Assembly: GCA_902628495.1 (NCBI GenBank)
Contig: CACONH010000001.1
Span: forward strand, 124,001-188,000
Direction of reading: 5' to 3'
Origin: an uncultured Pelagibacteraceae bacterium
Lineage (GTDB): Bacteria > Pseudomonadota > Alphaproteobacteria > Pelagibacterales > Pelagibacteraceae
DNA: 64,000 bases
Positions within the stretch are counted from its first letter, which is position 1. Each line of letters begins with the position of its first letter. The notes beneath the pieces were generated by a model. The model saw only the letters and a program-made list of their open reading frames with translations, had not been told where the DNA came from and made no database searches. A program made the position numbers and the translations under genes. Positions 15,387-47,982 of the stretch are shown here, piece by piece.

Positions 15387-15388
15387 CT

Positions 15389-15556
15389 ATGAGTCTTGAA
15401 ATTATTGTCCCTATAATAGCTTTAATAGGTGTTTTAGTATTAGTATTACCAGAGTTTATACGCACTAATTACAATATTAAAATATTAATTAAAAACTTAT
15501 CAATATGGATTATTGTAATCCTAATGATACTAATATTTATATATTTTATATTATAA
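15389..15556 (+). CDS. Small hydrophobic membrane protein, 55 residues
   Basis: Too short for the ORF track. The ATG lies 2 bases after the FkbM stop and is preceded by AAGGTA. The 55 residues begin MSLEIIVPIIALIGVLVLVLP and form two transmembrane segments (about 5-21 and 37-55) separated by a short polar stretch with one Arg and three Lys. The tight junction to the methyltransferase gene and the clean two-helix pattern support a real gene. I do not recognise the family. It could be a remnant of a longer membrane protein. Confidence 0.5.
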   Translation: MSLEIIVPIIALIGVLVLVLPEFIRTNYNIKILIKNLSIWIIVILMILIFIYFIL

Positions 15557-15567
15557 ATATTTATTAA

Positions 15568-15747
15568 TTATTTATTTTCAGCGCAGATATCCTTAATCAC
15601 AGGAACACTTGCACAATCACCACATTTGGTAACTTGTACCAAACATCCGCTATCAAGCATTTTCACGTCTACAACTCTATCACACTTAGAGCAAACCGAC
15701 GAAATAGTTAATCCGCACTTTTTACAACTAAATTTTTGTGTTTGCAT
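15568..15747 (-). CDS. Cysteine-rich zinc-ribbon-like miniprotein, 59 residues
   Basis: Missed by the ORF track. It begins MQTQKFSCKKCG and has eight cysteines in 59 residues: CKKC (8-11), CSKC (19-22), C35, CGDC (42-45) and C55. Two or three CxxC knuckles suggest a zinc ribbon or a small metal or Fe-S site. The gene faces away from dapB. A Fur-box-like palindrome starts 53 bases upstream of the start codon and a TATTAT -10-like hexamer abuts it. The family is not recognised; iron-linked regulation is an inference. Confidence 0.6.
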   Translation of the reverse strand: MQTQKFSCKKCGLTISSVCSKCDRVVDVKMLDSGCLVQVTKCGDCASVPVIKDICAENK

Positions 15748-15799
15748 GTAGTTAAGATAAAAAATTAAAAAAAATTATTCAAGAAATAACGTATAATAT

Positions 15800-15814
15800 T
15801 GATTATCATTATCA
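15800..15814. promoter_or_regulatory. Fur-box-like site 1
   Basis: TGATTATCATTATCA differs by one base from the 7-1-7 Fur consensus TGATAATNATTATCA. On the minus strand a TATTAT hexamer (15793-15798) lies just downstream, so a bound regulator would cover the spacer or -35 of a promoter for the Cys-rich miniprotein. Confidence 0.55.
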
Positions 15815-15859
15815 CAAAAAAACCAATTAAAATCATCTCTTTAAAAAAATCTTTATGAA

Positions 15860-15874
15860 TGATAATCATTATCA
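15860..15874. promoter_or_regulatory. Fur-box-like site 2
   Basis: TGATAATCATTATCA is a perfect match to the 7-1-7 Fur consensus TGATAATNATTATCA and an exact inverted repeat around the central base. It lies 60 bases from site 1 and ends 13 bases before the dapB start at 15888, overlapping the ORF-track start at 15855. Confidence 0.6.
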
Positions 15875-15887
15875 ACAAAATCTTTAT

Positions 15888-16661
15888 ATGAAAATAAATT
15901 TAACTATCACAGGATGTATGGGAAGAATGGGTCAACAGCTTATTAAATCTTCAAATAAAAATAAAAACTTCAAATTAGTTTCGCTTACAGAAAACTTTAA
16001 AATTAATAGAAAAATAAACAATGTTTTACCTGAATTTAATAACGTTAATTCTTTTAAAAAAACTAATGTCATCATAGATTTTACAGTACCTAAATGTACG
16101 CTGGAAGTCCTTAAAATTGCCTCAAAATTAAAAAAAAGGGTTGTTATAGGCACTACTGGTTTTACTAAAAATCAGGAAAATACAATAAAAAGATATTCTA
16201 AAAAAATTCCAATATTAAAAGCTGGGAACATGAGCTTAGGTATTAATTTATTAATGTATTTGACAGAAATTACCTCCAAATCTCTTGGAAGCAATTTTTT
16301 GAGTAAAGTTTTTGAAATTCATCATAAACATAAAAAAGATCACCCGTCTGGCACAGCTTTAATGCTTGGAAAAGGAATAGCTATTGGGAAGAATAAAGAT
16401 CTAAATAGATTGATAGGAAAAAAATATCTAAATAAAAAATCTTTTCCTTACGGAAAAAAAATAAATTTTAATTCGATGAGAAAAGGTGAAGTAATTGGTG
16501 AACATGAAGTTAAATTTTCTAGTGGTAAAGAAATCATAACTTTAAATCACGAAGCATTTGATAGAGCCTTATACTCTGAGGGTGCTTTAACCGCAGCAAA
16601 GTGGTTGATGAAGAAGAGACCAGGCCTTTATTCAATGAGAGATATATTGAACTTTAAATGA
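15888..16661 (+). CDS. dapB: 4-hydroxy-tetrahydrodipicolinate reductase
   Basis: NAD(P)H-dependent reduction step of the lysine/diaminopimelate pathway. The start at 15888 is chosen because MKINLTITGCMGRMGQ is the normal DapB opening; the tracked start at 15855 would add 11 residues encoded by a Fur-box-like palindrome. The protein is then 257 residues, with the nucleotide-binding GCMGRMG loop, FTVP, GTTGFT, and the catalytic HHKHKKDHPSGTA segment near 150. Overlaps nth by 4 bases, forming a plus-strand run with nth and the PfkB kinase. Confidence 0.95.
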   Translation: MKINLTITGCMGRMGQQLIKSSNKNKNFKLVSLTENFKINRKINNVLPEFNNVNSFKKTNVIIDFTVPKCTLEVLKIASKLKKRVVIGTTGFTKNQENTIKRYSKKIPILKAGNMSLGINLLMYLTEITSKSLGSNFLSKVFEIHHKHKKDHPSGTALMLGKGIAIGKNKDLNRLIGKKYLNKKSFPYGKKINFNSMRKGEVIGEHEVKFSSGKEIITLNHEAFDRALYSEGALTAAKWLMKKRPGLYSMRDILNFK

Positions 16662-19256: not shown

Positions 19257-20525
19257 ATGACAATATTTTTTTTTAACAATAAAGATTATCAAAAAGAAGT
19301 TATTTTTTTTATTATTCTTTATTTCACTTTAATAATAAGTTTCTTTTTTGGTGAGGATTCAACAGGAGGAGCATTTAGAGATTACGCTAATCAAAAAAAA
19401 GCGGTCCAAAGTTTCGCTACACAATTTTTAAATACTTTTTACGAATATGATTCATTTCAAACAAGACATTCCCCTATTTTGATAATCTTTCTATCTTTAT
19501 TTAAAAAGATTAATCTAGCAGATACCCTAACGAGACTAATTCATCTTCATATATGTTTGTTGTTACCTTTTTTCTTTTATAAGTGCTTAACGATAAAATT
19601 TAATAAAATAGATAGAAAAGTTTTATTTTTTTTATCAAGCTTGATTTTCTTATCGCCAACATTTAGAAGTTTGGCTATTTGGCCTGATAGTAGATTACTT
19701 GGTCTCACTTTATTTACGCTCAGTATTTATTATTTTTTAAAATTTGAGGATAGTAAAAATTTTAAATTTGCTATTAAAAATGTTTTGGTTTTAGCTCTAA
19801 GCGCTTACATCAGTCCTAATTTTTCTGTTTTTTCGATATTTTTTTTTATTAATTTCATTTTATATTACGGTTTTTTATCAAGGCAAAATTTATACTTGGT
19901 TATTATAAATGTAGTGTTGGCGTTTCCTGCCTTCTATTACGTATTTATTCTCGATGTAAATTTTTTATTAAAATCAGCTGCAATAGGAATTGGGAGTAAC
20001 GAAAAAATTATCTTTAATAATATTTTTAATGATATTTTGATTACATTTTCAATTGTTTTCTTTTACTTAATACCATTTATTTTTTTTAGAATAATTAAAA
20101 TAAATAATGTTTTAGATATTAAAAATATTTTAATTTCCTTAATTATCTTTTTAATTTGCGTGTTAAATTTTAATTATAATTATTCATATAGTGGTGGTGG
20201 TATATTTTTTAAGTTGTCTAATTATTTCTTTAAAAATAATTATTTATTTTATTTTATATCATTTTTCGCAATTCTAGTGATCTGCTCATTAATTAAAAAA
20301 AAATATTTAAATATTTTACTCATGGTATTAATTATTTTGAATAATCCACAATATACAATTTATCACAAATATTTTGATCCTTTTATTCTTATAGCATTTC
20401 TTACAATTTTCTCTTTTAATCTCGATTTAAAAAAAGTTTATTATAAAAAAAACTATTTGCTTATTTTTACATATTTTTTAGTTTTTTTGATTATAAGTAA
20501 CTTAAAATTAATATTATTAGTCTAA
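19257..20525 (+). CDS. Polytopic membrane protein, possibly GT-C-type glycosyltransferase
   Basis: The 422 residues have about ten to eleven hydrophobic segments. After the first helix there is a soluble loop with FFGEDSTGGAFRDYANQ, and later YDSFQTRHSPI. An acidic residue in the first extracytoplasmic loop is typical of GT-C transferases that use polyprenyl-phosphate sugars, but the rest is not diagnostic and I do not claim the family. It opens the accessory envelope region that continues with an SGNH hydrolase and secreted glycan-related proteins. Confidence 0.6.
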   Translation: MTIFFFNNKDYQKEVIFFIILYFTLIISFFFGEDSTGGAFRDYANQKKAVQSFATQFLNTFYEYDSFQTRHSPILIIFLSLFKKINLADTLTRLIHLHICLLLPFFFYKCLTIKFNKIDRKVLFFLSSLIFLSPTFRSLAIWPDSRLLGLTLFTLSIYYFLKFEDSKNFKFAIKNVLVLALSAYISPNFSVFSIFFFINFILYYGFLSRQNLYLVIINVVLAFPAFYYVFILDVNFLLKSAAIGIGSNEKIIFNNIFNDILITFSIVFFYLIPFIFFRIIKINNVLDIKNILISLIIFLICVLNFNYNYSYSGGGIFFKLSNYFFKNNYLFYFISFFAILVICSLIKKKYLNILLMVLIILNNPQYTIYHKYFDPFILIAFLTIFSFNLDLKKVYYKKNYLLIFTYFLVFLIISNLKLILLV

Positions 20526-27856: not shown

Positions 27857-27960
27857 TTTTTTTTTCTTTTAAAACTACCTTTGCCCTTTTTAGGTTTGAT
27901 AATTCTAGGTTTATATTTTTTTGTAAATAGGTCTTTTTTTAAAGGATTTTTCTTACTCAT
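27853..27960 (-). CDS. ArfA-like ribosome-rescue miniprotein, 35 residues
   Basis: Missed by the ORF track. Begins MSKKNPLKKDLFTKKYKPRI and ends in KPKKGKGSFKRKKK. The NPL...F...KY-R-I-KPKKGKGSFKRK pattern resembles the core of ArfA (PF03889), where DPLF-R-V-KKGKGSY-RK binds the empty mRNA channel and recruits RF2 to release stalled ribosomes. Its start lies within the end of the response-regulator gene (8-base overlap) and its TGA overlaps the pilin ATG. The overlaps on both sides argue that it is translated. Chance Lys-rich sequence is the main alternative. Confidence 0.6.
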   Translation of the reverse strand: MSKKNPLKKDLFTKKYKPRIIKPKKGKGSFKRKKK

Positions 27961-28555
27961 TGATTATATATCCATCTTTTTTACTTTCTATAAATGAGTC
28001 GTCGTTGAATGTGTCTTTGATTTTTTTTCTTAATCTATAAATATGTGTCTCAACTGTATGGGTTTCTAAATCTTCACCATATTTCCAAACTTTTTTTTGA
28101 AGGATATTCACATTAACTGGTTTATTTTCATTTTTAAGAAATAAAACAGTATCAATTTCTCGTTCAGTTAATTTTAACTCTTTATCAGATTTTTTTAACA
28201 TTCTAGAATTAATATCTAATATATATTTGCTTATATTAATATTTGATTGAACTGAGTAATTTTGTTGTATTAATCTTGCGTTTAATTGATCAACTAAATT
28301 AGAGATTTTTATTGGAAATTTTGTAATACAATGAATTTGTTTTTCATTGGTTTTGTTTTTTAATGAAGAAAAGTCTTTCCAATTAACAATAATTATTGAA
28401 TTTTCTAGAAATTTTCCATCTTCGTTAATTTTTTTTATCAAATCTTTTTTTTCAGTGAAGTAATTAATCTCGTAGTTAAAATAATCTTTAATTTCTATAA
28501 TAATTTTATCTAATTCTGGTATATTTAAAATATGCAACTTTTGTGAATGCATCAA
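27953..28555 (-). CDS. OmpR-type winged-helix regulator with degenerate receiver domain
   Basis: The C-terminal part (about 120-200) is an OmpR/PhoB winged helix: ELKLTEREIDTVLFL, VWKYGEDLETHTVETHIYRLRKKI and the wing DGYIINE. The N-terminal 110 residues have receiver-like alternation, but the expected phosphoacceptor Asp and acidic pocket are absent (IIIVNWKDF where a D-x-x-L-P would be expected), so phosphorylation-independent control is likely. It heads a minus-strand set with the ArfA-like protein and two pilins. Its start lies 8 bases from the divergent L,D-transpeptidase start at 28564, implying overlapping promoters. Confidence 0.85.
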   Translation of the reverse strand: MMHSQKLHILNIPELDKIIIEIKDYFNYEINYFTEKKDLIKKINEDGKFLENSIIIVNWKDFSSLKNKTNEKQIHCITKFPIKISNLVDQLNARLIQQNYSVQSNINISKYILDINSRMLKKSDKELKLTEREIDTVLFLKNENKPVNVNILQKKVWKYGEDLETHTVETHIYRLRKKIKDTFNDDSFIESKKDGYIINE

Positions 28556-28563
28556 ATTATATT

Positions 28564-35135: not shown

Positions 35136-36133
35136 TATTAAAAACCTTCGAATTAAGCAAAAATAATATTGATAAATTTAAATTCTTTCTTCTCTATGGT
35201 GAAAATGAAGGTTTAAAAGAAGAAATAATAAATAAAATAAAAAAAAATCAAAATGGAAAAGAAATTAAGTACGAGGAAGCGCAAATTTTAAAAAATAAAA
35301 GTGAGTTTTATAATGAAATAAAAAACAAATCTTTATTTGAAGAAAAAAGAATTTTTTTTTTAGGAAGATGCACAGAAAAAATATCGGAACTATTAATAGA
35401 AATATTTGAGGATACCTCTGATGATATATTTATAATAAATTGTAGTATATTAGAAAAAAAATCAAAGTTAAGAAATTATGCAGAAAGATCTAGCAATGTG
35501 GTAGTTATACCAACCTACAAAGATAATTCTCAATCTTTAATAAATATTGCAAGAAAATTTTTTAATGAGGAAAAAATCAGTATTTCCGCAGAAACATTAA
35601 ATTTGTTAGTTAATAGGTGTATGGGTGACAGGGGTATTTTAAATAAAGAATTGGACAAAATTTCAAATTACATATCAGAAAAAAAAATTATATCATTGAA
35701 AGAAATAGCTGTATTAACGAATTTATCTGAAAATTACAGTGCTTCAGAATTAGTTGATGCCTCTTTGACAAAAAATTATATAAAAGTAAAAGAAATATTG
35801 AATGAAAATATATATTCTCAAGAAGATACATTCTTAATATTAAGAGTTTTTTTGCAAAAAGCCAAAAAGCTATTAAGTTTATTAGAGATTATTAATAGCG
35901 AAAACAATGTAGAAAAAGCAATCAACGAATATAAACCACCCATATTTTGGAAGGATAAGCCAGTTTTAAAGAAACAACTTCAACTTTGGTCTTTTGAAAA
36001 TATTATAAATTTGATTTGTGAATTAAATGACATTGAAATTAAAATTAAAAAAAATAGTTCTCAAAATATAATTTTAATGAAAAATTTCATATATGAAATA
36101 TTAGATCGAAAAACTAATAACTCTTTTTTATAG
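35132..36133 (+). CDS. holA: DNA polymerase III delta subunit
   Basis: Clamp-loader subunit that opens the beta clamp. KFFLLYGENEGLKEEII at the N-terminus is the degenerate Walker-type region, NIARKFFNEEKISISAETLNLLVNRCMGDRGILNKELDKI the HolA core, and the C-terminal helices bind the other loader subunits. 333 residues, normal. It follows lptE with ATGA overlap and converges with parB, with which it shares 20 bases of coding sequence at the 3' ends. Confidence 0.93.
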   Translation: MILKTFELSKNNIDKFKFFLLYGENEGLKEEIINKIKKNQNGKEIKYEEAQILKNKSEFYNEIKNKSLFEEKRIFFLGRCTEKISELLIEIFEDTSDDIFIINCSILEKKSKLRNYAERSSNVVVIPTYKDNSQSLINIARKFFNEEKISISAETLNLLVNRCMGDRGILNKELDKISNYISEKKIISLKEIAVLTNLSENYSASELVDASLTKNYIKVKEILNENIYSQEDTFLILRVFLQKAKKLLSLLEIINSENNVEKAINEYKPPIFWKDKPVLKKQLQLWSFENIINLICELNDIEIKIKKNSSQNIILMKNFIYEILDRKTNNSFL

Positions 36134-36956
36134 ACTCTATAATTCTATTTAATTGATCTAATTCCTTATAATGAAAAGTTATTGATCCTTTATTATTTTT
36201 TTTATTATTTATCTCAATATTCATTCCAATTTTTTCCATTAGATTATGCTCTAAAACCTTTATGTTAGGATCTTTTTTGCTTATATGTTTTTTTCTAGGA
36301 GCTTTATAAGCTTTTACTAAAGTTTCAGCTTGTCTAACTGACAATCTCTTAGAAATTATTTTTTTTGCAATAAAAATAGAATTTTCCAGACCAACCAGGA
36401 TTTTTGCATGACCTGGGGATATTTTGTTATCTTTAACAAATTCAATAAGTTCAACAGGTAAGCTTAACAATCTCAAACAATTTGTTATGTGGCTTCGGCT
36501 TTTCCCTATAAATTTGGCAACTTGTTCTTGATCATAAGAAAATTCATCAATAAGTCTTTTATAACCTTCTGCTTCTTCTATTGCATTCAAATCATGTCTT
36601 TGAACATTTTCAACTATTCCAAACTCTAATGCTTTTTTATCATCTGCCTCTATAACAACAATTGGTACTTCATGTAACCCAGCTCGCTGTGCAGCAAGCC
36701 ATCTTCTTTCACCTGCAATAATTTCGTATTTGGTGTCTGTATTTGAATTTCTAACTATTATTGGCTGAATAATTCCTCTTGATTTAATAGATTCTGTTAA
36801 TTCGTCTAAGCTTATTTCATCAAACTTTTTTCTCGGTTGGTATTTATTTCTTTTAAGGTCACTTATATTAGCTTTAGTGCTCTCTGCAAATTTACCTTCT
36901 CCAATTAAAGATGAAAGGCCTCTGCCAAGTCCCTTTTTATTTTTAAAGTTAATCAT
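36114..36956 (-). CDS. parB: Chromosome partitioning protein ParB
   Basis: CTPase and parS-binding protein. Opens with the ParA-contact peptide GLGRGLSSLIGE, followed by the CTP-binding part (YQPRKKFDE, GERRWLAAQRAGL) and the helix-turn-helix YDQEQVAKFIGKSRSHITNCLRLLSLP near residue 140; the C-terminal ~50 residues are the dimerisation domain. 280 residues, normal. Overlaps parA by 4 bases. A parS-like site lies 1.4 kb away in rsmG. Confidence 0.97.
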   Translation of the reverse strand: MINFKNKKGLGRGLSSLIGEGKFAESTKANISDLKRNKYQPRKKFDEISLDELTESIKSRGIIQPIIVRNSNTDTKYEIIAGERRWLAAQRAGLHEVPIVVIEADDKKALEFGIVENVQRHDLNAIEEAEGYKRLIDEFSYDQEQVAKFIGKSRSHITNCLRLLSLPVELIEFVKDNKISPGHAKILVGLENSIFIAKKIISKRLSVRQAETLVKAYKAPRKKHISKKDPNIKVLEHNLMEKIGMNIEINNKKNNKGSITFHYKELDQLNRIIESIKKSY

Positions 36957-37753
36957 GCTGCTGTTTCAAAACTTTCTTCCTGAGCTAAAAACTCTTCTGT
37001 AAAACTAATATATGACTTGCTCCCAGGACAAGTTTTATCATAAAATATAACAGGCATACCGTGAGAAGGTGCTTCAGATAATCTAACATTTCTTGGTACA
37101 ACATTTTTGTAAACTTTTTCTTTAAAATAATTTCTTGCTTCAGTTTCAACCTCGCCGGAAAGCTTGTTTCTCTTATCATACATAGTCAAAAGTATTCCTC
37201 TAATCGTTAGTTCTTGATTTAATCCCACTTTAATTCTATCGATAGTTTTGATCAGTTGAGTTATACCCTCCAAAGCAAAGAATTCTGTTTGAAGAGGCAC
37301 TAATAGAGAGTGAGAAGCTACTAAGGCCATGACAGTTAACAAACTAAGAGATGGAGGGCAGTCTATAAGCACATAATCATATGAAGCTCTAGAATCATTT
37401 AAATATGCGGTCAATTTCTCCTTTAGAATATAAGCTCTACGACCATCATCTGCTGTTTCCACCTCCAATCCAGATAAATCAACATTTGAAGTGACTATAT
37501 CTAGATTAGAAAAATTAGTTTTAGTAATTGCTTCATCAATTTTTTTTTTTCCAACCAAAACTTGATAAATTGAATTAGATGTTTGATCTATATTAGATAA
37601 ACCTAAACCAGTTGTAGCATTTCCTTGGGGATCTAAATCAATTACCAAAACTTTTTTATTATTCAAAGAAAGTCCTGCTGCTAAATTGATTACAGTTGTT
37701 GTTTTGCCAACCCCGCCCTTTTGATTTATTATTGAAATGATTTTTTCTTTCAT
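36953..37753 (-). CDS. parA: Chromosome partitioning ATPase ParA (Soj)
   Basis: Deviant Walker A ATPase (INQKGGVGKTTTVINLAAGL) near the N-terminus, with LVIDLDPQGNAT and VLIDCPPSLSLLTVMAL as the other nucleotide-site motifs. Binds nonspecific DNA and moves ParB-parS complexes. 266 residues, typical chromosomal type without an N-terminal HTH. In the conserved order mnmG-rsmG-parA-parB, with 4-base overlaps on both sides, so one transcript is expected. Confidence 0.98.
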   Translation of the reverse strand: MKEKIISIINQKGGVGKTTTVINLAAGLSLNNKKVLVIDLDPQGNATTGLGLSNIDQTSNSIYQVLVGKKKIDEAITKTNFSNLDIVTSNVDLSGLEVETADDGRRAYILKEKLTAYLNDSRASYDYVLIDCPPSLSLLTVMALVASHSLLVPLQTEFFALEGITQLIKTIDRIKVGLNQELTIRGILLTMYDKRNKLSGEVETEARNYFKEKVYKNVVPRNVRLSEAPSHGMPVIFYDKTCPGSKSYISFTEEFLAQEESFETAA

Positions 37754-38385
37754 ATTCTTTTTAAATTATTTATTTTTACAATAACTGAATTCACATCTGT
37801 TAAACTTTTTACAATTTCATAATCAAACTTCCATAATTTTAAACATTCATTAATGTTGTCTCTGCCACTTTTTCCTAAAAAAAGTATCAATCTGTTATAA
37901 TGAGCAAAATTATTGTTTATTAATTCGAATATTGTTTGAAGTGGTTTAAATGCTCTAGCCACTATTATGTCCGCCTCTAATTCCTTCTGTTCAAAAATAT
38001 TTTTTTGCTTTACTTCAGCATTTAATTCGAAGTGCTTGATCATTTTTCTTAAAAAATTACTTTTCTTTTGACTTTTCTCATAAAGTTCAAATTTTATTTT
38101 TGATCCCTTTTTTTTAAATATAATTGCTAAAACTACACCTGGAAGACCAGAACCAGACCCTATATCTAAGCAAGTTTTTGTATTTTTATCAATAATATCA
38201 ATAATTTGGGCTGAGTCTATTATATGTCTTTTTATTGAGTCTTTCTCAGTTGATTTGCTGATTAAGTTTATTTTTTTGTTTTCGGTCAATAATAACGATC
38301 TGAACTCCTCTAAGGCAGGAAATGTTTCACGTGAAACGTTTAATGTTTCTAATTGAGAATATTTTTTAAGATTTGATTCGATCAA
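37750..38385 (-). CDS. rsmG: 16S rRNA (guanine527-N7)-methyltransferase RsmG (GidB)
   Basis: SAM-dependent methylation of G527. Motif I is [17 protein letters not shown] near residue 85, preceded by [21 protein letters not shown], both standard for RsmG. Residues 17-22, NVSRETF, are encoded by the parS-like palindrome; this VSRETF peptide is found in many RsmG proteins for that reason. 211 residues. Overlaps mnmG and parA by 4 bases. Confidence 0.97.
38323..38338. promoter_or_regulatory. parS-like centromere site inside rsmG
   Basis: TGTTTCACGTGAAACG matches the bacterial parS consensus TGTTTCACGTGAAACA at 15 of 16 positions. It is within the first codons of rsmG, about 1.4 kb from parB and 8.5 kb from the candidate origin, the usual origin-proximal location. 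I noticed no second CACGTG-centred match in the window. Confidence 0.88.
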
Positions 38386-43947: not shown

Positions 43948-44364
43948 ATGGAACAACAAACAGAATTTACAGTTTTTGGTAAAAATATAGAGCAATTATC
44001 TATTTATTATGGATTTTTTTTATTTTTGTGGGGAGTGATAGTAAGTCTAATATCTGGCAGCACATCTTTTACATCTTATATCCCAAGTTATTTTGGAAGT
44101 GTTGTTGTCTTATTTTCATATCTATCTATAAAATTTAGCAATAGGAAAAAATTATTTATGCATATAGTTGCTCTGACAGGATTTTTAATAGTGCTTGGAG
44201 GAATTGATGTAATACGAACAACATTAAATGGCAAATTGTTTGATAATTACTGGGCGGATATGTCTAAAATAATGATGTTAATAACTGGAGTTTTATTTGT
44301 TTATTTTTGTTTTATGTCATTTAGGTACGCACGAAAAATGGCAAACAAAGAAATTAATAATTAG
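43948..44364 (+). CDS. Four-helix membrane protein of unknown function
   Basis: 138 residues with four transmembrane segments (about 20-40, 47-65, 72-92, 105-127) and a soluble N-terminal tail. Not recognised; it lacks HemJ features such as the early conserved His, although in many alphaproteobacteria hemJ lies in this very rho-hem neighbourhood. It overlaps hemG by 11 bases at their 3' ends. Divergent from rho with a 108-base spacer. Confidence 0.7.
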   Translation: MEQQTEFTVFGKNIEQLSIYYGFFLFLWGVIVSLISGSTSFTSYIPSYFGSVVVLFSYLSIKFSNRKKLFMHIVALTGFLIVLGGIDVIRTTLNGKLFDNYWADMSKIMMLITGVLFVYFCFMSFRYARKMANKEINN

Positions 44365-44875
44365 ATAATTCTTTAGAAAATTTTTTGACCTTTGCCCAAT
44401 CTGTAAATTCATAAGAATGACTAATATCAGTCGGACCTTTTGTTATAAACATTATAAGCCTTATCACTAATTTATTAAAAAGGTTATAATTAGGATAGTC
44501 TACTTTTCCGGCAAATACCTCAATTTTTTTTGGTCTCCAATTTGTTTTTTTTAAAAATTTCTTTATGTAAGGATTTGTGTCTGGTGTGTTTTTTTCATTT
44601 TTGCGAGCTACTACATTCACTGAAAAGAATGCATTTTTTTTTGTTTCTAGTATTTTAATATTGTACTTTATAAATTTGAATAAATTTGATTTATAATTTC
44701 CATATCTTATACTTGCCCCCAGTATAATTTGATCATAATTATTAATATTAAGATGAAAGGCGTCTTCTAGAGGTAATATTTCGACAAACTCTTTATTATT
44801 AAAATTTTCTCTAATAACTTCACAAATTTTTTTTGTTTGACCGTCTGTGCTTGAGTATATTATTAACGATTTCAT
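44354..44875 (-). CDS. hemG: Menaquinone/ubiquinone-dependent protoporphyrinogen IX oxidase HemG
   Basis: Flavodoxin-fold enzyme oxidising protoporphyrinogen IX. MKSLIIYSSTDGQTKKI is the FMN-phosphate loop; YDQIILGASIRYGNY, AFFSVNVVARKNEKNTPDTN and the long-chain insert with KKTNWRPKKIEVFAGKVDYP match Escherichia HemG closely, including VARK-EK-TP-TN. 173 residues. It directly follows hemH (1-base junction) and so forms the last steps of the heme pathway with hemH and hemE. Alphaproteobacteria usually have HemJ here. Confidence 0.93.
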   Translation of the reverse strand: MKSLIIYSSTDGQTKKICEVIRENFNNKEFVEILPLEDAFHLNINNYDQIILGASIRYGNYKSNLFKFIKYNIKILETKKNAFFSVNVVARKNEKNTPDTNPYIKKFLKKTNWRPKKIEVFAGKVDYPNYNLFNKLVIRLIMFITKGPTDISHSYEFTDWAKVKKFSKELSNY

Positions 44876-45876
44876 TAACTATTTATAATATATTTATTCA
44901 CCAAATGGTTAAGAAGGTCTATGTGATCAGGATCATCATTTAGGCACGGCACAGTATCAAAATTTAAACCTCCTGCTTTTAGAAAGCTTTCTTTGCCTTG
45001 TATTGAAATTTCCTCTAAAGTCTCTACACAATCTGAAGAAAATCCAGGGCAAATAACTAGTAAATTCTTAACTCCTTCATTGGGTAGACTTTCTAGAGTT
45101 TTATCTGTGTATGGCTGTAACCATTCCTGTGGTCCAAATCTAGATTGGAAAGTTGTCATAATTTTTATATCCGTATAACTCTCCGATAAAAGTCTAGAAG
45201 TTTTTTGACAATAACACTGATAAGGATCACCTTTATCAAAATATTTTTTTGGGATACCATGATAAGATGCAAGTATTAAATCAGGCTTCCAATTAATTTT
45301 GGATAATTTTTTTTGAATACTTTTAGCAAGTGCTTTTATATAAAGTGGTTCAGACTCATAATGTGGAATAATTTGCAAGCTTGGCTGCCAGCGCATCTGC
45401 ATCAAAGTTTTATAGACCTCATCACAAACTGTTGCAGTAGTAGCTGCTGCATACTGAGGATATAATGGTAAAATAACAAGATTTTCGCAACCTTTGTCTT
45501 TAAGCTCGTCGATCTTGCTTCTGATGCTTGGAGATCCATACCTCATAGCATATTCTACAATTTTATTTTTGTTATTTAATTTTTCAGATAATTTTTGTGA
45601 TTGCATAATTGTGTAGTGTCTGAGCGGTGACATATTTTTGTCTTTCATCCAGATTTCTTTATAAGCTTTGGCCGTTTTAGATGGTCTAAATGTCAAAATA
45701 AATAGATTTAATATTATCTTCCATATAAAAGGGTTGACTTCAATGACTCGTCTATCTGACAAAAATTCTTTGAGATATTTTCTGATGTCCCACCAGCCAG
45801 TGCTATCTGGCGTACCAAGGTTAATTAATAATATGCCTGTTTTTCCGTATTTAACTTCTGGATGTTTATTGTTCAT
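44875..45876 (-). CDS. hemH: Ferrochelatase
   Basis: Inserts Fe2+ into protoporphyrin IX. Opens with GILLINLGTPDS; NPFIWKIILN, LPLYPQYAAATTATVCDEV and the catalytic His in ASYHGIPKKYFDKGDPYQCYC follow, with the conserved Glu in VETLEEISIQGKE near the C-terminus. 333 residues, no truncation. Starts on the base where hemE ends and ends where hemG starts, giving the tight order hemE-hemH-hemG. Confidence 0.97.
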   Translation of the reverse strand: MNNKHPEVKYGKTGILLINLGTPDSTGWWDIRKYLKEFLSDRRVIEVNPFIWKIILNLFILTFRPSKTAKAYKEIWMKDKNMSPLRHYTIMQSQKLSEKLNNKNKIVEYAMRYGSPSIRSKIDELKDKGCENLVILPLYPQYAAATTATVCDEVYKTLMQMRWQPSLQIIPHYESEPLYIKALAKSIQKKLSKINWKPDLILASYHGIPKKYFDKGDPYQCYCQKTSRLLSESYTDIKIMTTFQSRFGPQEWLQPYTDKTLESLPNEGVKNLLVICPGFSSDCVETLEEISIQGKESFLKAGGLNFDTVPCLNDDPDHIDLLNHLVNKYIINS

Positions 45877-46874
45877 TAGTAATTTTTAATTAATTTCACT
45901 AAATAATCTACCATACTTGGATCTGTATTAGGAAGAACACCATGTCCTAGATTGAAAATGTAAGGTTTATCTTTAAAAATATCCAAATATTTAAGAGTAT
46001 TTCTTTTTAACTCCTCTTTATTTCCAAGTAACAAATTTGGGTTTAAGCCTCCTTGAACCGTTATATCTATCGTATTAGCAATTTCTATAGGGTTTACATT
46101 GTAGTCTATACTGACAACATTTGGCTTAACTAATGCAACATATTTTTTATAATTTTTGATATCCTTTGGAAAACATATTGATGGAATTTTCTTAGATTTA
46201 ATGAAATTGACTAGATTATTTGTTGGTTTATAAACATAATTTTCTAAATCTTCTTCATTTAGAAGTCCTGCCCAGCTATCAAAAATCTGGATAATTGTTG
46301 CGCCACTTTTGATTTGATTATCTATATGTATTTTTAAAAATTTTATAATAATTTCTAATAATTCATTAACAAATATCTTGTCACTTAGATGTTTTTTAAA
46401 GTTACCGTCTTTAGGAGATTTTTTGTGTAACATATAAACAAGAATTGTCCACGGAGCACCAACAAATCCAATGAGATCCTTATCTTGAAGCTCTTTCTTC
46501 ATTTTGGTTATTTTTAAGGAATTATAAACTGGTTGTAGTTTTTTAATATAATCATTTTCACTAATTTTAGATAATTTACTAATATTTATTTCACCTAATT
46601 CTGGCCCAAAATCTTTTTTAAAATTTACTGGCTGACCTAATGCATATGGTAGCAATAAAATATCAGAAAAAATGATTGCTGCATCAAAGTTAAATCTTTT
46701 TAGTGGTTGTACTGTAATTTCGGAAGATAAATTTTCATTTAAACACAAATCTATAAAATTAGGATTTTTAGATCTTATTTCCCTAAACTCAGGTAAATAT
46801 CTACCTGCTTGTCTCATCAACCAAATGCAATTATTTCTAGATTTCTTATTTATACAATTTTGTATAGGTGTCAT
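45876..46874 (-). CDS. hemE: Uroporphyrinogen decarboxylase
   Basis: Converts uroporphyrinogen III to coproporphyrinogen III. Signature WLMRQAGRYLPEFREIR near residue 18 and FVGAPWTILVYML, DSWAG, and GGLNPNLLLG near 275 are present. 332 residues. Its start borders the 283-base candidate origin; in Caulobacter and Rickettsia hemE is the gene that flanks oriC on one side. Confidence 0.97.
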   Translation of the reverse strand: MTPIQNCINKKSRNNCIWLMRQAGRYLPEFREIRSKNPNFIDLCLNENLSSEITVQPLKRFNFDAAIIFSDILLLPYALGQPVNFKKDFGPELGEINISKLSKISENDYIKKLQPVYNSLKITKMKKELQDKDLIGFVGAPWTILVYMLHKKSPKDGNFKKHLSDKIFVNELLEIIIKFLKIHIDNQIKSGATIIQIFDSWAGLLNEEDLENYVYKPTNNLVNFIKSKKIPSICFPKDIKNYKKYVALVKPNVVSIDYNVNPIEIANTIDITVQGGLNPNLLLGNKEELKRNTLKYLDIFKDKPYIFNLGHGVLPNTDPSMVDYLVKLIKNY

Positions 46875-47157
46875 AATTAAGATTAAGTAATATTTATATT
46901 ATTTGTAGTAGAGATGTTAATATTGAATATTACTATTTTTTAACACTTTTATAACATTTTTTTCACAATTAATTTGTTTAAAAAAAACCTTAAAAATAAG
47001 GGTGATCTTGATTAATACAAATTTATTCAAAAAGCAGTATATTGGTTATAAACATGTTTTAAAATGTTATTAAAAAGCTTTTTTTTGATTTTAGATGCTA
47101 GAATTTGCAAGTTTGTTAATAAGCTAATATTAATACAAAATTCTTTATTAATTATAC
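46875..47157. other. Candidate chromosomal replication origin (oriC)
   Basis: The longest gene-free stretch of the window, extremely AT-rich, between hemE (leftward) and ppsR (rightward). The Caulobacter and Rickettsia origins lie beside hemE in this same gene context. One degenerate DnaA-box match (TTTTTCACA, 46959) and three one-mismatch sites (TTATTCAAA at 47023, TTATAAACA at 47046, TGTTAATAA at 47114 for the other strand) occur, plus an AACAT/ATGTT inverted repeat at about 47051-47068. Nearby parAB and parS, and genes pointing away on both sides, agree. No CtrA TTAA-N7-TTAA pair found by eye. Confidence 0.7.
46959..46967 (+). promoter_or_regulatory. DnaA-box-like site in candidate oriC
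   Basis: TTTTTCACA fits the degenerate DnaA box TTWTNCACA exactly and the strict TTATNCACA with one mismatch. It sits next to a run of T-rich sequence that could serve as the unwinding element. Confidence 0.45.
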
Positions 47158-47982
47158 ATGAGTAATACATATGAAATTTATTTAGTCTCAGATTCAACTG
47201 GTGAGACACTGGAAAGAATATTCTTAGCCATTAGGGCTCAGTTTAAAAATTTCAATTATAAAATGCATTATTTTTCTTTTACACGAACTGAAAACCAGAT
47301 TTTAAAAATTATAGAAAACTCTGCTAAAAATAAGAATTCTATTTTCTTGTATACAATAGTAGATAATAAGCTTGCTCAATTTTTATCAACAGAATGTAAC
47401 AAAAAAAAAATTCCTTGTTTTGGCGTATTAGGTGATCTCATTTTAACTTTCTCAAAATTATTAAATCAAGAAGCAAGCCACATTCCAAGTGGACAATATA
47501 CTATGAACGAAGATTATTATAAAAAGATCGAAGCTATCCAATTTACTATGAACCATGATGATGGAAACTCATTAGATGATATAGGCAAATCTGATATAAT
47601 TTTACTAGGAGTTAGTAGAACAAGTAAAACACCTACTTCAATTTACTTAGCAAACAAAGGTATGAAAATTTCTAATATACCATTAGTAAACGAGCAATCA
47701 GTTCCAGAATTTTTAAAAGAAAAACCAAACTTGACTTGTGTCATAGGCCTAACAGCAGAGCCAGATAGATTAGTAGATTTAAGAAAAAATAGGATGCAAT
47801 CTATAAAAGAGAATGAAAATAAAAATTACATTGATTTTGAAAAAATTAAAAATGAAATAGAAATTTCAAAAAAACTTTTTCAAAAATACAATTGGCCGAC
47901 AATAGATGTCACAAGAAAATCAGTAGAAGAAACTGCAGCCTCTATACTTAAAATTCACGATATATTTAATCATAATGAATAA
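47158..47982 (+). CDS. ppsR: PEP synthase/PPDK regulatory protein (DUF299 kinase-pyrophosphorylase)
   Basis: Bifunctional ADP-dependent kinase and Pi-dependent pyrophosphorylase that switches PEP synthase or pyruvate phosphate dikinase. IYLVSDSTGETLERI at the N-terminus and the P-loop LLGVSRTSKTPTSIYLANKG near residue 155 are diagnostic. 274 residues. First gene right of the candidate origin, as in other alphaproteobacteria, and overlapping maf by 8 bases. Its target enzyme is not in the window. Confidence 0.95.
   Translation: MSNTYEIYLVSDSTGETLERIFLAIRAQFKNFNYKMHYFSFTRTENQILKIIENSAKNKNSIFLYTIVDNKLAQFLSTECNKKKIPCFGVLGDLILTFSKLLNQEASHIPSGQYTMNEDYYKKIEAIQFTMNHDDGNSLDDIGKSDIILLGVSRTSKTPTSIYLANKGMKISNIPLVNEQSVPEFLKEKPNLTCVIGLTAEPDRLVDLRKNRMQSIKENENKNYIDFEKIKNEIEISKKLFQKYNWPTIDVTRKSVEETAASILKIHDIFNHNE

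Follow-up and report, generated by a model that had tools for sequence, protein, structure and literature searches.

A compact candidate chromosomal replication origin in the hemE-ppsR spacer of a Pelagibacteraceae bacterium

The hemE-ppsR spacer and its conservation

We examined a 64-kb stretch of DNA (the window; contig 1, positions 124001-188000) from an uncultured Pelagibacteraceae bacterium, with attention to the spacer between hemE and ppsR (46875..47157, no strand assigned) as a candidate chromosomal replication origin (oriC). The genome is of the Pelagibacter type and 92% complete (1.0 Mb in 17 contigs), and the named relatives of the window are uncultured Pelagibacteraceae. The two flanking genes are read outward, hemE on the minus strand (45876..46874, TIGR01464 above cutoff) and ppsR (COG1806/DUF299) on the plus strand (47158..47982, NF003742 above cutoff), so that the initial annotation had both their orientation and the limits of the spacer exactly right: 283 bp separate the hemE start at 46874 from the ppsR start at 47158. 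The spacer has 17.3% GC vs. 28.4% for the window, and just 64 of 6372 sliding 283-bp windows have a lower GC, in line with its description as among the most AT-rich stretches; the lowest-GC 283-bp windows (14.5% GC) lie at 20001-20343. Its description as the longest gene-free stretch is also fair, the sole longer stretch free of open reading frames (15387-15854) seeming, by eye, to contain short ones. Scanning the window against Rfam and for tRNAs gave no matches, and no viral relative of ppsR was found.

NCBIfam annotation of both sides bore out the gene context of the Caulobacter and Rickettsia origins, with ppsR-maf-aroE-coaE-dnaQ followed by secB and fxsA on the ppsR side, and hemH-hemE together with rho, mnmE, mnmG, rsmG, parA, and parB on the hemE side. 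The parB/parA pair (36114..37753) consists of parB (36114-36956) and parA (36953-37753), both on the minus strand. The parS site that had been placed 8.5 kb from the spacer is present with one mismatch (TGTTTCACGTGAAACG, 38323..38338, no strand assigned), and is the only match in the genome at two or fewer mismatches. In the four genomes tested for parS with at most one mismatch, there was one site per genome, 7.4-8.6 kb from the spacer.

The spacer is conserved across SAR11, as the initial annotation had proposed to check: its length is nearly constant in 91 distinct relatives of the same genus (261-290 bp), with conserved blocks, and its GC ranges from 12 to 19.5% in the first 56 relatives measured. 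A sister family within the order (L182-L203) has maf in place of ppsR opposite hemE, across a spacer 268-281 bp long (22 genomes with hemE found); ppsR was not found among the genomes listed for this family. The hemE-maf spacer carries the strong DnaA boxes TTATCCACA and TTATACACA. The window itself resembles a recombinant around the origin (44001-47000), identity switching at or close to hemE and the spacer: identity to L032, L035, and L046 is ~0.9 to the right of the spacer, ~0.7 across hemE, and <0.65 to the left of 45 kb, and the pattern is reversed against L042 (0.9 left, ~0.82 right).

DnaA boxes and a putative opening module

DnaA-box motifs were scanned in a diverged set of 22 lineages with <70% identity to each other. 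Exact TTATNNACA occurs 2.36 times per spacer vs. 0.36 times in dinucleotide shuffles (none of 200 as high), and the sister-family spacers show a similar enrichment. In two complete relatives, G003 and G037 (640-693 kb sampled), the spacer is the joint best and the best 300-bp window for TTATNNACA, respectively. The enrichment in the window alone is modest (10 near-boxes vs. 4.5 expected, P about 0.02): exact TTATNNACA occurs at 47046 (plus) and 47114 (minus), TTATNCACA does not occur in the spacer, and strict DnaA boxes are absent from it. With strict box scans of only the window, the signal almost went undetected. The sites of the window look weak because they have drifted from the lineage consensus. 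The DnaA protein is canonical (TIGR00362, with the DHTTV signature in domain IV), and ordinary boxes are therefore expected.

The most conserved 9-mer of the spacer over the 22 lineages is TGTGAATAA, a reversed DnaA box that forms an information-content peak at 46915-46923 of the window (box B1, minus strand; ATATTAACA here, cross-lineage consensus TTATTCACA). The other peaks fall on three plus-strand boxes and one minus-strand box. The former are arranged head to tail with an 11-bp period: B2 at 46937..46945 (TTTTTAACA, consensus near TTATTAACA), B3 at 46948..46956 (TTTATAACA), and B4 at 46959..46967 (TTTTTCACA, consensus TTATTCACA), the last being a DnaA-box-like site already reported and now confirmed. 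The minus-strand peak is B6 at 47065..47073 (TTAATAACA, consensus TTATTAACA), whose position is conserved. Box B5 (47046..47054, plus strand, TTATAAACA) runs into a conserved AACATGTTT, and a further site at 47114..47122 (minus strand, TTATTAACA) lies outside the conserved blocks and may be due to chance. Over the 22 lineages, spacing of MAC, the 3′ core of the box, was 11 bp in 27 cases and 22 bp in 16, with no other distance occurring more than six times. The view of a very reduced origin with few strong boxes holds in that the spacer is compact, with no conserved CtrA, IHF, or GANTC sites; DnaA sites are not scarce in it, there being at least six conserved box positions, the 11-bp-phased array, and a DnaA-trio module.

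This module is a DnaA-trio-like repeat, TAT TAT TTG TAG TAG, at 46897..46911 on the plus strand, the strand that DnaA would contact. It is a drifted copy (its box being TGTTAATAT) of a series that in relatives lies upstream of the reversed box B1, with TAG/TAT triplets (e.g., TAG TAT TAG TAT TAT) phase-locked to the box across a fixed 4-nt gap. In the basal unwinding system (BUS), a gap of ~4 bp separates a DnaA box from the triplets 3′-GAT-5′ that come after it (PMC8287927; trio polarity from PMC8235120). At the level of sequence, the strand, order, and gap of the SAR11 triplets match this published system. In relatives the TGTGAATAA consensus lies within the 16 bp allowed between box and trios, and many lineages have at least three consecutive central-A triplets of correct polarity; the copy in the window is weaker, with its run broken by TTG. 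The sister family has TAG TAG TAG TAG TTG in two genomes and less regular series in others. Two class-level comparator spacers (L178 and L180, read by eye) have strong boxes near ppsR, and a trio is not clear in them.

Opening through a DnaA-trio at this site is likely. The triplets of a genuine origin could instead be a coincidence of AT-rich DNA, with opening elsewhere in the spacer at an unwinding element of the E. coli type served by DnaA and a bending protein. The trio search as published is permissive when applied to AT-rich sequence, some triplets in the window and in the sister family have a central T (TTG, TTT), and the spacer has other AT-rich stretches. We consider such a coincidence unlikely given the strong phase lock over the 22 lineages, where 66% of TAN triplets are in the trio phase vs. 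2% and 14% in the remaining two, and the twelve-fold higher density of TAG in the trio region than downstream (0.099 vs. 0.008 per nucleotide). The triplets are also on the correct strand and in the correct order relative to the box, the 4-nt gap has 35% GC vs. 16% overall, and IHF sites are not conserved. Returning to the DnaA-trio, the pattern TAN-TAN-TAN-N4-TGTGAATAA without mismatch has 13 matches in 61 whole genomes, all of them within the hemE-ppsR spacer. Allowing one mismatch adds the spacers of 18 further genomes, along with scattered matches elsewhere.

Strand composition and the case for oriC

Strand composition was sampled as 20-kb stretches of G003 and G037. GC skew to the left and right of the locus is -0.070 and +0.037 in G003, and -0.074 and +0.050 in G037, and plus-strand coding rises from 37 to 60% and from 28 to 64%, respectively. 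Skew and gene strand thus reverse within ~30 kb of the locus in both complete relatives, a favorable outcome of the GC-skew check that the initial annotation had called for, and in G003 the best circular split corresponds to an origin at -2 to +91 kb (P = 0.0045). We dropped dif as a terminus marker, Pelagibacter having been reported to lack dif/Xer (PMC2731167).

The hemE-ppsR spacer is very probably the chromosomal replication origin. It has the features of hemE-type oriC, being flanked by hemE and COG1806, AT-richer than the genome, and furnished with several DnaA boxes (evident when lineages are compared, weak in the window by itself), with a reversal of strand composition nearby. The observations behind this assignment are the position of the spacer, its conservation, the phase and spacing of its motifs, the genome-wide uniqueness of the perfect trio and box, the skew reversal, and the single nearby parS. 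Read in this way, the spacer is not an empty origin but a compact one of the hemE type, and as such a new member of an origin type already known.

Several observations weigh against this assignment. The boxes of the window are weak, B1 having two mismatches to TGTGAATAA, and the trio-box gap in the lineage of the window is 3 nt (AGA, 46912-46914) and not 4. The trio-box pattern was drawn from these very spacers, so its presence there is expected and only its absence elsewhere is evidence. The best circular split of G037, at -130 to -60 kb, falls short of significance (P = 0.07), and 0 to +60 kb does almost as well. A finer step fit favors -30 to -32 kb in both genomes, 0 kb following closely. 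Skew places the origin only to about ±30 kb, is here largely tied to gene strand, and comes from G003 and G037.

Skew by itself permits displacements of tens of kb, and replication might start at or beside dnaA, ~62 kb off in the complete relatives (74 kb in this genome), with the spacer a relic. This is very improbable: in both genomes the skew is fitted less well by a break at -62 kb than by one at 0 kb, the box clusters, the perfect trio-box pattern, and parS all indicate hemE-ppsR, and a relic is not expected to retain its length and boxes in two families. It is barely credible that the spacer is merely a regulatory region shared by divergent hemE and ppsR, with their promoters perhaps regulated by DnaA: these genes must have promoters here and the start of ppsR has a conserved TATAC motif, but spacer length and DnaA boxes outlast the loss of ppsR in the sister family, which argues against a mere promoter region, and the trio and box, the nearby parS, and the skew reversal have no role in one.

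Regulator sites, mechanism, and known origins

The claim that the spacer has no CtrA pair is not literally correct, as there is one TTAA-N7-TTAA at 47059. It carries no weight because the motif is common in AT-rich DNA (38 matches on both strands of the window); it is found in 35 of the 91 relatives' spacers and in none of the 22 from the sister family, and does not qualify as a conserved CtrA site. CtrA sites are not universal in alphaproteobacterial hemE-type oriC (PMC1914354), and the lack of conserved ones is consistent with the report that Pelagibacter has no ctrA ortholog (PMC2877005). Neither of the two OmpR-type regulators of the genome was identified as CtrA, both scoring below NCBIfam cutoffs. 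At 27900-28560 the window encodes an OmpR-type DNA-binding domain behind a poorly recognizable receiver (L111, 200 aa), adjoining two pilin-like genes whose starts read NGFTLIELLVVVAIIGILA. The IHF site WATCAN5WTR is absent from the spacer of the window and not conserved, with matches in 19 of 91 relatives and in none of the 22 sister-family spacers. Three proteins of the HU/IHF type are encoded in the genome; for one of these, IHF alpha is the closest match, at a score below its cutoff. GANTC is likewise not conserved (5 of 91 and 0 of 22). According to a survey of CcrM, SAR11 is exceptional among Alphaproteobacteria grouped with Rickettsiales in that it possesses a CcrM homolog (PMC3973325).

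We infer that DnaA binding, melting, and initiation itself take place at the spacer. DnaA would bind box B1 and the 11-bp-phased array B2-B4, and a DnaA filament would grow from B1 toward hemE onto the plus-strand TAG/TAT triplets, opening the AT-rich DNA on the hemE side. The helicase would be loaded next and forks would depart both ways, with parS, 8.5 kb off on the hemE side, copied and segregated soon after. More tentatively, the SAR11 origin might be minimal and dependent on DnaA only, with a trio-box opening module, a short phased array of weak boxes, and no input through CtrA, IHF, or CcrM sites, initiation being set by the level of DnaA alone; we put this forward as a possibility with rather more against it than for it.

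The origin shares its flanking genes, AT-rich spacer, DnaA boxes, and bacterial class with the oriC of Caulobacter crescentus and Rickettsia prowazekii, which also lies in the hemE-COG1806 spacer (PMC1914354). It differs in length (~280 bp vs. 384-404 bp), in lacking conserved CtrA or IHF sites, and in its mostly looser boxes (TTATTMACA). With the BUS of Bacillus subtilis and others (PMC8287927, PMC10721633, PMC8235120) it shares a box, a gap of ~4 bp, and central-A triplets of the expected strand and polarity. The triplets of the putative SAR11 module, however, are a mixture of TAG and TAT, the copy in the window being imperfect, and there is no clear tandem box pair beside the trio in the genus. 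The oriC of E. coli contains phased arrays of low-affinity DnaA boxes. Like these, the SAR11 array has weak boxes head to tail, 2 bp apart, and suited to a cooperative filament; unlike them it has three boxes only.

SAR11 are among the most abundant cell types of the ocean, and in natural settings growth rates are estimated from origin-to-terminus read ratios. We found no sequence-level description of a SAR11 origin in the searchable literature: the papers found either assign its position by rule or state it and give no anatomy of the sequence. The origin may be listed in prediction databases such as DoriC. The sites mapped here to the base, which are conserved in both the genus and the sister family, offer a fixed point for growth-rate estimates and a few positions that can be mutated to study how initiation is controlled without CtrA.

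Away from the origin, repeated Fur-box-like sequences (tgataatcattatca) are present at 15780-15900, upstream of ~15890.
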